In this document: positions 4,585 to 9,146 of the stretch, piece by piece | Position numbering within the stretch: the stretch's first letter is position 1 | How the letters are laid out: every line of letters begins with the position of its first letter | Source of the DNA: a virus | Virus record (IMG/VR): IMGVR_UViG_3300009436_000133 | Coordinates: 1-21,350 of that record | DNA: 21,350 nt | Direction: 5' to 3' (one strand) | Program-made: the position numbers and the translations under genes | Notes under the pieces: model-generated | Told to the model about the DNA's origin: nothing | What the model saw: only the letters and a program-made list of their open reading frames with translations | The model's database searches: none

Positions 4585-6270
4585 ATGGCTTCAGGCTCAC
4601 AGAAGGTTAAGACACCTACAGGCTGGAACGCAACACAAGGTGCGTGGGTAAAAACGCCTGACGGGTGGAGAGCAGTAGAACAAATCTATGTTAAAACGCC
4701 TGACGGGTGGAATAACGCTAGTGGACAGGAGTCTGTAAGACAACCCGCTAGAAGACCAACAACAGGTCAACTTCAAGCACAGAGACCCGCTACTGGGACT
4801 CAACCAGCACAAAGACCCGCTACTGGACAATTACAAGCACAAAGACCAGCGACAGGTAGACTGCAAGCACAAAGACCCGCTACTGGACAAACACCTTATC
4901 CTGCTAGCGCACAAACTGCCTATCCTGCTAACGCACGTGGAAGATATCCCGCTAACGCACAATCACCTTTTACATATCAGGCAAGTGCACGTGGAAGATA
5001 TCCTGCTAACGCTCAGAGTCCATTTACTTATCAGGCAAGTGCACGTGGAAGATATCCTGCTAACGCTCAATCACCGTTTACTTATCAAGCGCCCACAACT
5101 TATCAAGCGCCCACAACTTATCAAGCAAGATATCCGTTTACGTATCAAGCCTCATATAGATTCCCGTTTACGTATCAAGCAAGATATCCGTTTACGTATC
5201 AAGCGCCTACAACTTATCAAGCGCCTACAACTTATCAAGCAAGATATCCGTTTACGTATCAAGCAAGATATCCGTTTACGTATCAAGCTAATACAACGTA
5301 TCCTGCTAACGCACGTGGAAACACAACGTATCCAGCTAATACAACGTATCCTGCTAATACAACGTATCCTGCTAATACAACGTATCCTGCTAACGCAAGA
5401 CAACCGAATTCATCGAATTCACAGAATCCGTTTACGTATCCTGCTAACAGTCAGTATCAGTTTCAAGATATTAAACAGGGAGCTCCATCTCAGTTACCGC
5501 TTGTTTATCAGGCACCAGCAAGACAACCTTCCAGTTCCAGTAGCAGAGCTCCATTTACGTATCAAGCGCCTACAACTTATCAAGCGCCTACAACTTATCA
5601 AGCGCCTACAACTTATCAAGCGCCTACAAGATTTCCGTTTACGTATCAAGCGCCTACAACATATCCTGCTAACGCACGTGGAAGATATCCTGCTAACGCA
5701 CGTGGAAGATATCCTGCTAATACAACGTACCCAGCTAATACAACGTATCCTGCTAACGCACGTGGAAGATATCCTGCTAACGCAAGAGGCCCAGGCACGT
5801 ATCCTGCTAACGCACGTGGAACATATCCTGCTAATACAACGTACCCTGCTAATACAACGTATCCTGCTCAGGCAAGACAACCTAGTACATATCAGGCAAG
5901 ATATCCGTTTACTTATCCTGCTGATGCAAGACAACCTAGTACATATCAAGCGAGATATCCGTTTACTTATCCTGCTGATGCAAGACAACCTAGTACATAT
6001 CAGGCAAGGTATCCGTTCACATATCAAGCAAGACAACCTAGTACGTATCAGGCACAACAACCTTATCCGTATCAGCAGAACTATCAGAACCCGTACCCGT
6101 TCCAGCAGAACTATCAGAACCCGTACCCGTTCCAACAGAACTACCAGTTCCCGTATCCGTTCCAACAGAACTATCAGAACCCTTATCCGTATCAGCAGAA
6201 CTATCAAACTGCCGTGGATAGATGGGACGGTGTACTACAACAACAGTGGCCAGCAACACCTATTTCTTAG
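4585..6270 (+). CDS. Proline/tyrosine-rich tandem-repeat protein, probable virion fibre or adhesin
   Basis: No named family recognised for the whole 561-residue product. Residues 1-48 hold three copies of VKTP(D/T)GW, a short motif seen at the ends of some phage fibre proteins. Residues 52-104 are RPATGQLQAQ units. Residues 105-163 are YPANAQSPFTYQASARGR units. Residues 164-272 mix TYQAPT, RYPFTYQA and NTTYPA hexamers and octamers. Residues about 273-320 form a less regular linker with poly-Ser. Residues 321-430 repeat TYQAPT, NTTYPA and ARGRYPAN. Residues 431-490 are ARQPSTYQARYPFTYPAD units, and residues 491-541 are (F/Y)QQNYQNPYP decamers. A unique tail (residues 542-561) closes it. After residue 48 there is no Cys or His, only one Lys, and many Arg. 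GGGA at 4572-4575 serves as the ribosome-binding site. There is no signal peptide or membrane segment. Probably a long repetitive fibre or surface component; the role is inferred from neighbours. Confidence 0.75.
   Translation: MASGSQKVKTPTGWNATQGAWVKTPDGWRAVEQIYVKTPDGWNNASGQESVRQPARRPTTGQLQAQRPATGTQPAQRPATGQLQAQRPATGRLQAQRPATGQTPYPASAQTAYPANARGRYPANAQSPFTYQASARGRYPANAQSPFTYQASARGRYPANAQSPFTYQAPTTYQAPTTYQARYPFTYQASYRFPFTYQARYPFTYQAPTTYQAPTTYQARYPFTYQARYPFTYQANTTYPANARGNTTYPANTTYPANTTYPANTTYPANARQPNSSNSQNPFTYPANSQYQFQDIKQGAPSQLPLVYQAPARQPSSSSSRAPFTYQAPTTYQAPTTYQAPTTYQAPTRFPFTYQAPTTYPANARGRYPANARGRYPANTTYPANTTYPANARGRYPANARGPGTYPANARGTYPANTTYPANTTYPAQARQPSTYQARYPFTYPADARQPSTYQARYPFTYPADARQPSTYQARYPFTYQARQPSTYQAQQPYPYQQNYQNPYPFQQNYQNPYPFQQNYQFPYPFQQNYQNPYPYQQNYQTAVDRWDGVLQQQWPATPIS
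4735..6207 (+). repeat. Coding tandem-repeat tract of several interleaved unit types
   Basis: The tract is built from units whose lengths are multiples of six bases. Examples are an 18-base unit for TYQAPT (around 5090-5240 and 5560-5640), an 18-base unit for NTTYPA (around 5330-5395), a 54-base unit for QPSTYQARYPFTYPADAR (copies beginning at 5878, 5932, 5986, then 6034 after a shortened 48-base unit) and a 30-base unit for NYQNPYPFQQ (about 6070-6207). Neighbouring copies are nearly identical in DNA, which indicates recent duplication or ongoing homogenisation. Confidence 0.9.
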
Positions 6271-6307: not shown

Positions 6308-7810
6308 ATGGAAAATATTGAAAAGAAATTAAACTTTACACCCATGCGTCTTGATTGGACAAGAGAAAACGTGCGTCAACAAGTTTTCTTTAAAGGTGGT
6401 CATCATGTTGGTCATATCAAAGTTAATGCAGACGGTAGCTTTGACAAAGACGGTCATGCCTATAAAACAATCAAATACCTACTTGAAAATCATTACTGTC
6501 CCGATGTAAAATTGGTTACTTGGGCTGATATCAAAGAGTCTAAGTTTATTGAACTAGATAATTTCGGTCTAAATTACCAAGCGTCTTCTTATTTGAAACG
6601 TATTCCCGACTACTATACAGCTGGTGCAAATATGGGATACTGTAACACCAAGACTGATGAGAGTGAAACTAGTTCGGGACATGCTGGTTCAACATTTTAT
6701 CATGGGTGCAAAGGACACTGGTTACTACATGACATTCAAAAGAATGGATTGAATCAACCCATACAATGTGGTCTTCAAAAATTAGGTGATACAGGTAAGT
6801 ATGGAACTCATGTTCACCCAGGCTCAGTAAGACAAGGAGTTTTTGGTGCTACAGATAATGAAGAAATGGAAATCATTGTTTGGGACGCATATAATGCCTT
6901 CGATTGGATTAAACCCATGGAAATTGATGAATGGATTTCTATCTTCTGCCGTCCACAATTCAATGGAGAAATACCTACAGAAATAAGTGTTTGTTATTCA
7001 TATTTAAATATTGAACTACAATGCAGTGGTGCACATAAAGAACTTGCAACACAAGAAAACATAGAGTACAATTGGAGAAATGAAGTTAAATCATTCTCTA
7101 AAAAAGTATCTAAGTTATTTAACGGTAAACCGTTATCAGTGTACATTGGATATGACTCTCGACATGACGGTGTAGAAGAAGTACAAATAAAATCTCACAT
7201 ACAAGCTATGACGAGAAACGTAAAAGAAGAAGACACACGATTCATTCCCGAATTCAAATTACTTGACATAAGTAAAATACCCGAATATACTAGAGAGTAT
7301 GCAAACCAGTCTACTGAATTTACATACAGTAGATTCTTAATTCCATATTTGGAAAACTATGAAGGGTTCAGTATGTTCATAGATAATGACTTTATATGGC
7401 AAAAACCATTTTGGGAAATGTTCTATTTCCTACACCCCGACAATGCTGTTGCATGTGTTCAATATGATTATGAATTAGAAAAAATGTCTAAAACTAAAAT
7501 GGGGGGTGAGGAAAATGTTATGTATCCAAAAAAACTTTGGTCAAGTTTAATGTTCTTTAATAATGCACATGAAGATTGTAAAAAACTAACACCCGAAGTT
7601 ATTAATACAGCGACAGGTCAATACCTACACCAATTTGAGTGGACAGATGCTATTGATAGAATACCCGATAAATATATTCTAACAGAAGGCATGTCTGATG
7701 ATGAAAAAAGATATCATGCGGTTCATTACACTAGAGGTGGCCCATGGGTAAAGGATATGGAAGTTGAAGAAATCAAACATCTAGAAGTGTATAATAAACA
7801 CAATAAATAA
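6308..7810 (+). CDS. GT8-like glycosyltransferase with a ParB/sulfiredoxin-like N-terminal region
   Basis: A 500-residue, two-part protein. The C-terminal part (residues about 275-485) has the features of GT-A-fold, family-8-like glycosyltransferases: VYIGYDSRHDG (278-288) at the nucleotide-sugar site, TEFTYSRFLIPYL (336-348), a metal-binding DxD at D359-N360-D361 within FIDNDFIW, SSLMFFNN (412-419), and a closing HYTRGGPW (473-480) in place of the usual HFxGxxKPW. It should transfer a sugar from a nucleotide sugar; donor and acceptor are unknown. The N-terminal part contains LLHDIQKNGLNQPI (139-152) and HVHPGSVRQGVF (168-179), resembling the D-I-x-x-x-G-x-x-x-P-I and G-x-x-R motifs of the ParB/sulfiredoxin fold; this assignment is tentative. 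It lies directly downstream of the repeat protein and upstream of two 2OG oxygenases, which suggests modification of fibre proteins or of a host or virion glycan. Confidence 0.75.
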   Translation: MENIEKKLNFTPMRLDWTRENVRQQVFFKGGHHVGHIKVNADGSFDKDGHAYKTIKYLLENHYCPDVKLVTWADIKESKFIELDNFGLNYQASSYLKRIPDYYTAGANMGYCNTKTDESETSSGHAGSTFYHGCKGHWLLHDIQKNGLNQPIQCGLQKLGDTGKYGTHVHPGSVRQGVFGATDNEEMEIIVWDAYNAFDWIKPMEIDEWISIFCRPQFNGEIPTEISVCYSYLNIELQCSGAHKELATQENIEYNWRNEVKSFSKKVSKLFNGKPLSVYIGYDSRHDGVEEVQIKSHIQAMTRNVKEEDTRFIPEFKLLDISKIPEYTREYANQSTEFTYSRFLIPYLENYEGFSMFIDNDFIWQKPFWEMFYFLHPDNAVACVQYDYELEKMSKTKMGGEENVMYPKKLWSSLMFFNNAHEDCKKLTPEVINTATGQYLHQFEWTDAIDRIPDKYILTEGMSDDEKRYHAVHYTRGGPWVKDMEVEEIKHLEVYNKHNK

Positions 7811-7827
7811 AAGAGAGGAACTATATT

Positions 7828-8388
7828 ATGATAAAAAACGCACTAGTATTTACCGAAGATAACAATCTTCACATAACCAAACCAAACGGTTTGAGATATC
7901 AATTTGAAAACGTAGACAAACCAAATCTTGGTTTTGACTTTGACGTTGTTGTCTATGACAACGAAGAGTTTAAAATTGTTAAGTATGACGATACCAAACA
8001 TTTTGATGAAAATAAACGTGAACCACTTACTGATACCGATAGAGACGCTATCGAAACATATATTAGTAATTCCGAACCGCCAACAAACGTAAATTTAAAT
8101 AATCAAATTATTGACGAATTGAATGAAAATATTTACAGAAATATCGAAGAGATGGCACAACAGTGGAGATTCCGTGATTTCAATGAAACTATTTACGCTG
8201 GACGTGAGGGGTCTAATCACCCATTTAGGTCTGATGCAAGAACTGTAATGGAATATGCAGACTCAGTAAATGTTATTCTTGTTCAAGTTATGGACGAAAT
8301 AGTTGCAACAAGAGAAGACCATTTACGTGACTTTGATTATTACATTAACCAATTTCCACAACCAACCAATCCGAATCTGGCTCTGTAA
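7828..8388 (+). CDS. DUF4376-like protein, possible tail-fibre accessory
   Basis: A 186-residue soluble, acidic protein. Residues 1-85 form an N-terminal part with no motif I can name. Residues about 105-165 contain QQWRFRDFNETIYAGREG and then HPFRSDARTVMEYADSVN, the pattern (R-x-x-x-x-x-V/I-Y-x-G, then F-x-x-D-x-x-S/T) of the DUF4376 domain, which occurs in phage tail-fibre-associated proteins. The similarity is by eye and the function of that domain is not established. A good ribosome-binding site, GAGAGGA at 7813-7819, precedes the ATG. The stop overlaps the next ATG by one base (TAATG at 8386-8390), so it is coupled to the oxygenase gene downstream. It could be a fibre chaperone or fibre-tip protein. 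Confidence 0.6.
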   Translation: MIKNALVFTEDNNLHITKPNGLRYQFENVDKPNLGFDFDVVVYDNEEFKIVKYDDTKHFDENKREPLTDTDRDAIETYISNSEPPTNVNLNNQIIDELNENIYRNIEEMAQQWRFRDFNETIYAGREGSNHPFRSDARTVMEYADSVNVILVQVMDEIVATREDHLRDFDYYINQFPQPTNPNLAL

Positions 8389-9146
8389 TGAATTTTGTCT
8401 ATCATGATGAACCTTTTAAACTAACAGGGGAAAACTTTCCTTTTGGCATGAAGACTGTTCACGTGGTTGACAATTTTCTTGGGCCAGAACTTCATAAATT
8501 TTGGAATGATTCTCTTGTCAATTCTAATATGTGGTCTAAAACAAATCAAGTTGGTTCAAGAAGTAAAACGGGGTTACCCCACCACAGTTTTTGGGGCGGA
8601 ACATTTTTTAGTGGAATGCATCATAACAACGGTAAGAAAGATATCCCCGCCGAGACCGACAACTCTAATACATATTTTGCTGAATTCTTTAATAGAAAAT
8701 GTGAAACAGACTTTGGGTTTAGGTGGTTAGACTTTGACTACATGGGTTTAAATTCACAGACACAGGGACTTGATGGTACAAATCATGTTGATTGTGAAGA
8801 CAATAAAGACTGGAACTTATCATTTCTTTGGTATATCAATACATTTTGGAACCCTAATTGGGGCGGTGACTTACGGTTTTATGAGTTTAATGAGGGGGGT
8901 GGAGTTGGTGATAGTATGGATAAGTTTGAAGTGGGTAGAGTAGAATTTAAACCAAATCGTCTTTTACTATTTGACGGTAGAATACCGCATGGTGCTGAAG
9001 CACCAAAACCTAGTGCAAGATATATAGACCGTAGGTCTGTGGTATTAAGGGGTTCGGAAATAGAACTTTATAATCACAATAAAAAACGAGAATATCCTAA
9101 TAGGAAAACAGTCTTTAATAGAATGTATGAGTGGGGATTAGGATAA
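8388..9146 (+). CDS. 2-oxoglutarate/Fe(II) oxygenase, prolyl-4-hydroxylase-like
   Basis: A 252-residue product with the facial triad of 2OG-Fe(II) dioxygenases: H133-V-D135 in TNHVDCEDN, the strand LSFLWYINTFWNPNWGGDLRFYE with its GG-(D/E)-L signature, and the distal H201 in LLLFDGRIPHGAEA. Basic residues R211, R215 and R216 follow, one of which should bind the 2OG carboxylate. The N-terminal segment VHVVDNFLGPEL (24-35) matches the start of P4H-type domains. The enzyme is expected to hydroxylate a side chain or small molecule using O2 and 2-oxoglutarate; the substrate is unknown. Such genes are common beside structural genes in marine T4-like phages. Both ends are joined to neighbours by one-base TAATG overlaps, which places it in one translational unit with the genes at 7828 and 9146. 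No signal peptide is present, so it should act in the cytoplasm. Confidence 0.8.
   Translation: MNFVYHDEPFKLTGENFPFGMKTVHVVDNFLGPELHKFWNDSLVNSNMWSKTNQVGSRSKTGLPHHSFWGGTFFSGMHHNNGKKDIPAETDNSNTYFAEFFNRKCETDFGFRWLDFDYMGLNSQTQGLDGTNHVDCEDNKDWNLSFLWYINTFWNPNWGGDLRFYEFNEGGGVGDSMDKFEVGRVEFKPNRLLLFDGRIPHGAEAPKPSARYIDRRSVVLRGSEIELYNHNKKREYPNRKTVFNRMYEWGLG

Follow-up and report, generated by a model that had tools for sequence, protein, structure and literature searches.

The window analyzed here is the whole of positions 1 to 21,350 (21,350 nt) of IMG/VR virus record IMGVR_UViG_3300009436_000133. Its genes run from tail-fiber-like genes, so identified by PHROG tail fiber matches, to a gene encoding a repetitive protein, a putative glycosyltransferase gene, genes for 2OG-Fe(II) oxygenases, a gp13-type gene (head-tail adaptor Ad2 in PHROG), and a terminase gene. 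Judged by sequence matches, this is the gene order of T4-like phages. The annotated terminase closest to that of the window belongs to Phage C48C1, Kyanoviridae (54.6%). The repeat gene, its parts, and the genes that follow it are as follows.

4585-6270, + strand: repeat gene, 561 aa
4585..4728, + strand: N-terminal base domain, residues 1-48, KTPTGWN..AWVKT..IYVKT..GWNNASGQ, three W/KT hairpin-like units
4729..5442, + strand: arm 1, residues 49-286, with RPATGQLQAQ, ARGRYPANAQSPFTYQAS, TYQAPT, RYPFTYQA, and NTTYPA in a strict 2-residue register
5443..5508, + strand: central irregular linker, residues 287-308 (..QFQDIKQGAPSQLP..), the sole parity break within the repeat region
5509..6219, + strand: arm 2, residues 309-545, with TYQAPT, NARGRYPA, NTTYPA, ARQPSTYQARYPFTYPAD, and NYQNPYPFQQ, which would return toward the base
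6220..6267, + strand: C-terminal base segment RWDGVLQQQWPATPIS, residues 546-561, with R546 facing the start of arm 1
6308..7810, + strand: putative glycosyltransferase (C-terminal half), 33-37% identical to annotated glycosyltransferases/nucleotide-diphospho-sugar transferases
7828-8388: 185-aa protein of the cassette, between the glycosyltransferase-like gene and the 2OG oxygenase gene
8388..9146, + strand: 2OG-Fe(II) oxygenase of the cassette (PF13640, 35.2 bits versus a cutoff of 27)

From the position of its gene, between the tail-fiber-like genes and the gp13-type and terminase genes, we infer that the repeat protein is a tail or virion fiber. Where a listed type-1 locus has enough flanking sequence, a gene of 500-550 aa lies directly after the arm genes, and the same cassette (glycosyltransferase-like protein, 185-aa protein, and 2OG oxygenase) is found there. 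The glycosyltransferase gene at 6308..7810 is a member of this conserved cassette and no part of the fiber proper; it is possible that the cassette enzymes modify the fiber. PHROG 274 carries the label "DNA endonuclease V," yet the window protein that it matches (8388-9146) is a 2OG-Fe(II) oxygenase by PF13640, and the label looks wrong.

A PHROG profile search with the window repeat protein matched 0 families, and its relatives gave only short, weak matches to families of unknown function, some of which probably reflect repeat composition. The window protein did match Cementoin (PF10511, the trappin transglutaminase-substrate motif) with 50.9 bits against a cutoff of 27, from three short stretches. 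Because its relatives scored below the cutoff (13-17 bits) or did not match, we read this hit as probable convergence of repeat composition. The base domain (residues 1-48) is nearly invariant among relatives; AlphaFold2 places strands in it, with low confidence, at residues 21-24, 27-30, 35-38, and 41-44, and a search for PDB relatives gave as its best match a designed barrel with an E value of only 0.16.

The original prediction for positions 4735-6207 (residues 51-541) was that the spacings between YQA, YPA, LQA, and RPA motifs are even throughout, except for one of 23 residues across an irregular linker (287-309), and that such a register points to an extended conformation in which residues alternate in and out, as opposed to a random disordered tail. 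The spacings are indeed even in 51 of 52 cases, being 4 (3 times), 6 (18), 8 (17), 10 (11), and 18 (2); the single odd value, 23, falls at the linker. Autocorrelation gave identities of 0.10-0.34 at all even lags up to 40 and ≤0.067 at odd lags (even-lag value, 0.199; odd-lag value, 0.047). The distance from one residue to the next of its kind was even versus odd 66 to 1 times for Tyr, 74 to 4 for Pro, and 77 to 5 for Ala. No even-lag excess was seen in eight other proteins scored alike, seven from the window plus T4 gp34.

To follow this register across the family, IMG/VR was scanned with the window protein, giving 72 loci with 54 distinct relatives, in every one of which even-lag exceeded odd-lag autocorrelation. 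Across 55 repeat cores, 2,418 aromatic spacings were even and 77 odd; Pro had the opposite phase to the aromatics in 2,214 of 2,262 cases, and Ala was in phase in 92%. Tandem copies are not independent, and so distinct interaromatic segments were counted instead: 559 were even and 34 odd, or 222 and 29 after similar ones were merged, the odd segments lying mainly at interruptions and ends. Among relatives at least 75% identical, 794 indels were even and 51 odd; the irregular linker is involved in many of the latter. Thus, even spacing persists in homologues, and odd spacings at a similar frequency were not encountered.

The original prediction missed a mirror relation between the two halves of the protein. 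Counted outward from the linker, the unit lengths of the window protein are identical in both arms: 18, 6, 6, 6, 10, 6, 8, 8, 6, 6, 8, 10, 8, 6, 6, 10, 8, 10, 8, 10, 8, and 8. The units that face each other differ, for example, NTTYPA and TYQAPT, NARGRYPA and RYPFTYQA, and NYQNPYPFQQ and RPATGQLQAQ. By unit length, 46 of 49 anchors are symmetric, the runner-up center having 18; when the unit order was shuffled, at most 18 of 23 matched, versus 23 observed. The linker is the center of the mirror (at 297.5), and parity flips within it, at residue 300.

A two-state phase model found one such in-repeat parity break per fused relative, except for L011, which has two close together; the break is near the midpoint over total lengths of 434-561 aa. 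In most of the remaining relatives, this point separates two adjacent genes, one for arm 1 (base domain, repeats, and a tail or Hint domain) and one for arm 2 (repeats and RWD..WPATP); in some split loci the gene order is reversed.

The lengths of the two arms are strongly correlated (r = 0.988 for 35 pairs of 173-432 residues), and close relatives alter both arms alike (r = 0.977 for 43 comparisons; e.g., 48/48, -24/-24, 21/22, 47/46, and -58/-60). In an enlarged set of 78 split pairs, Spearman's coefficient was 0.954; the raw Pearson coefficient was 0.84 because ten arm-1 proteins bear an extra domain of ~150 aa that starts where arm 2 ends. For the 67 pairs differing by ≤40 residues, and thus selected on the difference, r was 0.989. 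In 26 pairs the Hint domain gives an objective end to arm 1, and in these r was 0.999 with a difference of 7.3 ± 3.2 aa; the longest such pair of the first set is 432/429. The nearly identical phages L050 and L055 have opposed arm lengths (301/273 and 265/291), either from collapse of repeats during assembly or from a real mismatch.

The arms are related not only in length but residue by residue. Mutual information computed without training gave, for the window protein, the register i + j = 595, in which residue i of arm 1 is opposite residue 595 - i of arm 2. When taken singly, 39 of 40 pairs picked one and the same register anchored at the base; 595 equals the end of SGQ (48) plus the start of RWD (546) plus 1, and this offset is identical in the 39 pairs. 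The pairing thus begins at the residue right after the base domain. Pooling the pairs gave 1.45 bits of mutual information per residue pair, compared with 1.05 for the next register. The mirror of the unit boundaries, i + j = 597, had been used for the first matrix and was dropped, as it is two residues away from the register given by unsupervised mutual information; apart from the unit-boundary mirror itself, all pairing results are at 595.

In this register, the partners of the 85 Tyr/Phe cells in the window protein are Ala (68), Gly (15), Thr (1), and Gln (1), and never another aromatic, so that Ala or Gly is opposite 83 of the 85; for the 72 Pro cells they are Gln (39), Arg (17), and Thr (16), and never Pro. 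The original prediction had proposed that Arg-rich and Tyr/Pro-rich faces could bind polyanions or glycans. Free faces binding polyanions are not supported: Tyr and Phe lie across from Ala or Gly, and the residue that Arg meets on the paired strand is mostly Pro or Tyr. In 15 nonredundant arm pairs, the favored combinations, observed (expected), were A:Y 372 (91), A:F 272 (42), P:Q 524 (134), P:R 401 (86), and N:T 306 (64), and the avoided ones were Y:Y 0 (44), A:A 0 (47), and P:P 5 (72). Overall, A:Y, A:F, G:Y, P:Q, P:R, N:T, E:S, and D:I are ~4 to 15 times above expectation. The code for directly opposite residues is Tyr/Phe with Ala/Gly (also Val, Asn, or, for Tyr, Arg), Pro with Gln/Arg/Thr, Asn with Thr, Glu with Ser, and Asp with Ile.

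With a scoring matrix trained on fused proteins, 32 of 33 split pairs showed the register; conversely, training on split pairs recovered it in 7 of 7 fused proteins. When whole clusters were left out, true partners scored 0.914 ± 0.143, and swapped partners in the same register scored -0.844 ± 0.389; at L056 and L058, the swapped partner equals or slightly exceeds the true one. Of 53 pairs fetched later, some of which are related to training pairs, 52 had the register. Parallel pairing as a control gave 0.23 bits with no shared shift, and self-pairing gave 0.095 bits. There were a few exceptions: the register of L021 and L221 is off by one 18-residue unit, and L089 fails the register test. These loci, like L050 and L055, may contain errors in the assembly of repeats. 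At the level of sequence, these comparisons establish the register, the complementarity, the equal lengths, and the antiparallel sense of the pairing.

A paralogous family of mirrored-arm fiber genes has other end domains (MADEIYIN.. and KAVYLND..), and the matrix trained on the first family only gave a constant register in 18 of 19 of them. On several contigs that also carry the window-type gene, the paralogue (MADEIYIN..KAVYLNDAGTLRKL) lies some kilobases upstream of it; these include 3300022074_000013 (L082, L007, and L095), L085, L101, and others, with both fused and split forms. The window probably starts right after a gene of this type.

Two explanations that do without paired strands bear on these data. 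One is a beta-solenoid or triple beta-helix with one unit per coil, a form that the original prediction had left open. Many phage fibers are beta-helical, and solenoid strands likewise show alternating faces. However, the coils would vary in length, as units of 6, 8, 10, and 18 residues (anchor spacings of 4, 6, 8, 10, and 18) are intermixed, and stacking fails to predict arms that conserve residue count and have opposite units that differ in sequence, run antiparallel, and match residue for residue; we give this form hardly any credence. The other is that DNA repeat mechanics, by slippage in multiples of 6 nt or by inverted duplication, produced both the even units and the mirror. At the DNA level, the units do repeat in tandem, with periods of 18, 24, 30, 54, 60, and 114 nt. 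Against this, identical peptides have many synonymous encodings (11 for the 22 copies of TYQA), which places selection at the protein level; no DNA inverted repeats were found; and the mirror is one of complementarity, not identity. In split loci it links two separate genes, which already contradicts an origin in DNA mechanics, and we regard that origin as just as implausible as the solenoid.

In beta-strands, residues alternate between faces, and the amides of alternate residues point toward opposite edges. We consider it highly probable (about 0.86) that the repeat region is two extended strands paired antiparallel along their entire length, as a hairpin or, where the gene is split, as a heterodimeric ribbon. 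Arm 1 would run outward from the N-terminal base, the chain would turn at the linker, which we propose as the fiber tip or hairpin turn, and arm 2 would run back, bringing the end of the C-terminal RWDGVLQQQWPATP segment next to the N-terminal base. Each unit of one arm would be complemented by an equally long unit of the other, and a change of length in one arm would be matched in the other. In split relatives, the hairpin would be cut at the tip and the two gene products would pair as a heterodimer. Spacing would be even because an odd insertion would swap the alternating faces of a strand. Tyr and Phe would pack against small residues on one face of the ribbon, and Pro, being of one parity, would place its missing amides at the outward, non-hydrogen-bonded edges. 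Since arms made of different units have equal residue counts, the strands would be extended and without turns, and the ribbon would then be ~80 nm long here (238 residues at 3.3-3.4 Å) and up to ~140 nm in relatives such as the 432/429 pair. The extended chain with alternating faces of the original prediction, as opposed to a random tail, is strongly supported.

The antiparallel pairing need not be within one chain. Fused chains could instead remain straight and form antiparallel homodimers, or exchange arms with one another in a trimer or a larger cable; the linker would then be a two-fold crossing. An intermolecular antiparallel dimer would yield the same signal of constant i + j, and the long-tail-fiber proteins of T4 are trimers (PMC3004832). 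This arrangement seems unlikely, however, given that split genes break at the center with arm 1 capped by a tail, a ~150-aa domain, or a Hint domain, as if this were an exposed end, and that conserved base segments at both termini hold a fixed register.

The ribbon does not appear in structure predictions: AlphaFold2 gave a pLDDT of 33 for the window protein (10-sequence alignment) and <40 for the repeats of one relative, with no ribbon in either model. Very low confidence within the repeats would also suit an elastic, disordered adhesive in which the repeats serve as stickers and spacers. Mussel foot proteins are of this sort; they are Tyr/Pro rich with mixed hexapeptide and decapeptide repeats. 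The repeat protein shares with them its composition and its mixed short repeats, and oxygenase and glycosyltransferase genes adjoin its gene. Disorder, however, predicts neither the 2-residue register nor 1.45 bits of pairing at one fixed register, and we know of no paired arms in mussel foot proteins. The variant in which the oxygenase makes hydroxyproline was set aside, as pelagiphages in which we detected no repeat protein likewise encode 2OG oxygenases close to gp13. A disordered adhesive is thus very improbable. As a side observation, the annotation of a SAR11 phage, Pelagibacter phage HTVC008M, includes CsgF-, CsgG-, and CsgB-like curli genes (L078, 7562-9557).

Among relatives, the tip of arm 1 is a Gly/Pro tail, a ~150-aa domain, or a Hint domain, and the ribbon would carry one of these, or a loop, at its end. 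The fiber tip is likely the contact end. The ~150-aa domain, which is unannotated and starts about where arm 2 ends, was seen in L157, L158, L175, L194, L245, L246, L247, L250, L268, and L290; it is a candidate receptor-binding domain. The Hint domain, which the window protein lacks, is at the C terminus of arm 1, mostly after a run of Gly (L027, 1788-3017; L035; L056; L125; and others). AlphaFold2 predicts it with high confidence, and the fold was recognized by PF01079 (32.0 bits versus 29.7), by the BIL2 6tmm profile (E = 1e-11), and by Foldseek (6y75, E = 3e-10). As in Hint/BIL domains, Cys1 and the terminal His-Asn are present, and both are invariant in 19 aligned relatives. Unlike in splicing inteins, the domain is C-terminal, and no Cys, Ser, or Thr as first C-extein residue and no C-extein were found in Hint-tipped relatives: HN is followed by Gly, Phe, Met, or Leu and then only by a short tail. 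Ordinary splicing is therefore unlikely, and, because the residue after HN is no splicing nucleophile, cleavage or transfer would be the likelier activity.

Repeat members were not found in a "phages" search, in which simple-sequence masking may hide some, or among the long even-register ORFs of Mosig and HTVC008M (first 99 kb). Weak tblastn matches to Vibrio, Ruminococcus, and Corynebacterium phages were rejected; their E values were poor, and the translated Vibrio protein has unrelated SAASNTGDQ repeats. In that phage, Vibrio phage 1.185.O (L074, 2670-3503), these coding tandem repeats lie beneath opposite-strand features annotated as "CRISPR spacer" noncoding RNAs, an annotation that is probably false. 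CDS0201 of Phage C48C1 (L127, 1012-11055) is a 3,348-aa "hypothetical protein" with globular inserts and repeats of TYDGTYARTRTS and GNYSRNFAGEY; despite its even register, no antiparallel partner strand was resolved. Arm genes are also present on two contigs of bacterial metagenome-assembled genomes, L125 (Sphingobacteriales) and L126 (Flavobacteriales), which are probably phage contigs binned with bacteria or else a weak hint of the host.

Several known systems share features with the repeat protein. The needle of T4 gp37 is an elongated beta structure in which the chains run to the tip and back and alternate residues point into the core; it is trimeric and six stranded, with His-bound metal ions. 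The proposed ribbon resembles it in the path of the chain and the alternation of residues. It is no sequence relative, residues 811-1026 of gp37 having hardly any even-lag signal (0.099 even versus 0.084 odd), and the arms here are, at ≥238 residues, different from a needle of ~150 by 25 Å (PMC3004832). The gene for the repeat protein is, like that for T4 fibritin, upstream of the gp13-type/terminase block. Fibritin (wac), the neck whisker, is encoded upstream of the gp13-gp17 block of T4. It differs from the repeat protein in being a segmented coiled coil (PMC3004832).

The proposed arms are also like coiled coils in that two chains are held in register by a position-specific code. In coiled coils and leucine zippers, such a pairing code sets the register, and length scales with residue number. 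The arms differ in having a period of 2 instead of a heptad, in being apparently beta instead of helical, in their richness in Pro, and in the hetero-complementary residues at almost all positions. In silk fibroin and other beta proteins with a 2-residue period, two faces alternate along an extended strand. Whereas every segment of the repeat protein is assigned to a single partner at a defined position, silk fibroin lacks both a unique register and a partner arm.

With confidence nearly as high as for the paired strands themselves, we propose that these proteins are a new class of architecture: very long two-stranded antiparallel ribbons with a residue code of fixed address (~1.4 bits per position), coevolving by compensated indels, with strands often from two genes and one arm largely specifying the other. 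In a light search of the open-access literature, we found no earlier description of such a protein zipper. The code looks like a beta-strand counterpart to the pairing rules of coiled coils, specifying one register among many near-identical repeats over strands that would reach 80-140 nm. It would explain how a fast-changing repeat protein keeps its function, namely, by indels that are even and matched in the partner arm. The pairing rule predicts sequence features of one gene from its neighbor and may offer a template for designed protein fibers. The tip domains, the intein-like one included, are candidate host-contact parts of marine T4-like phages.
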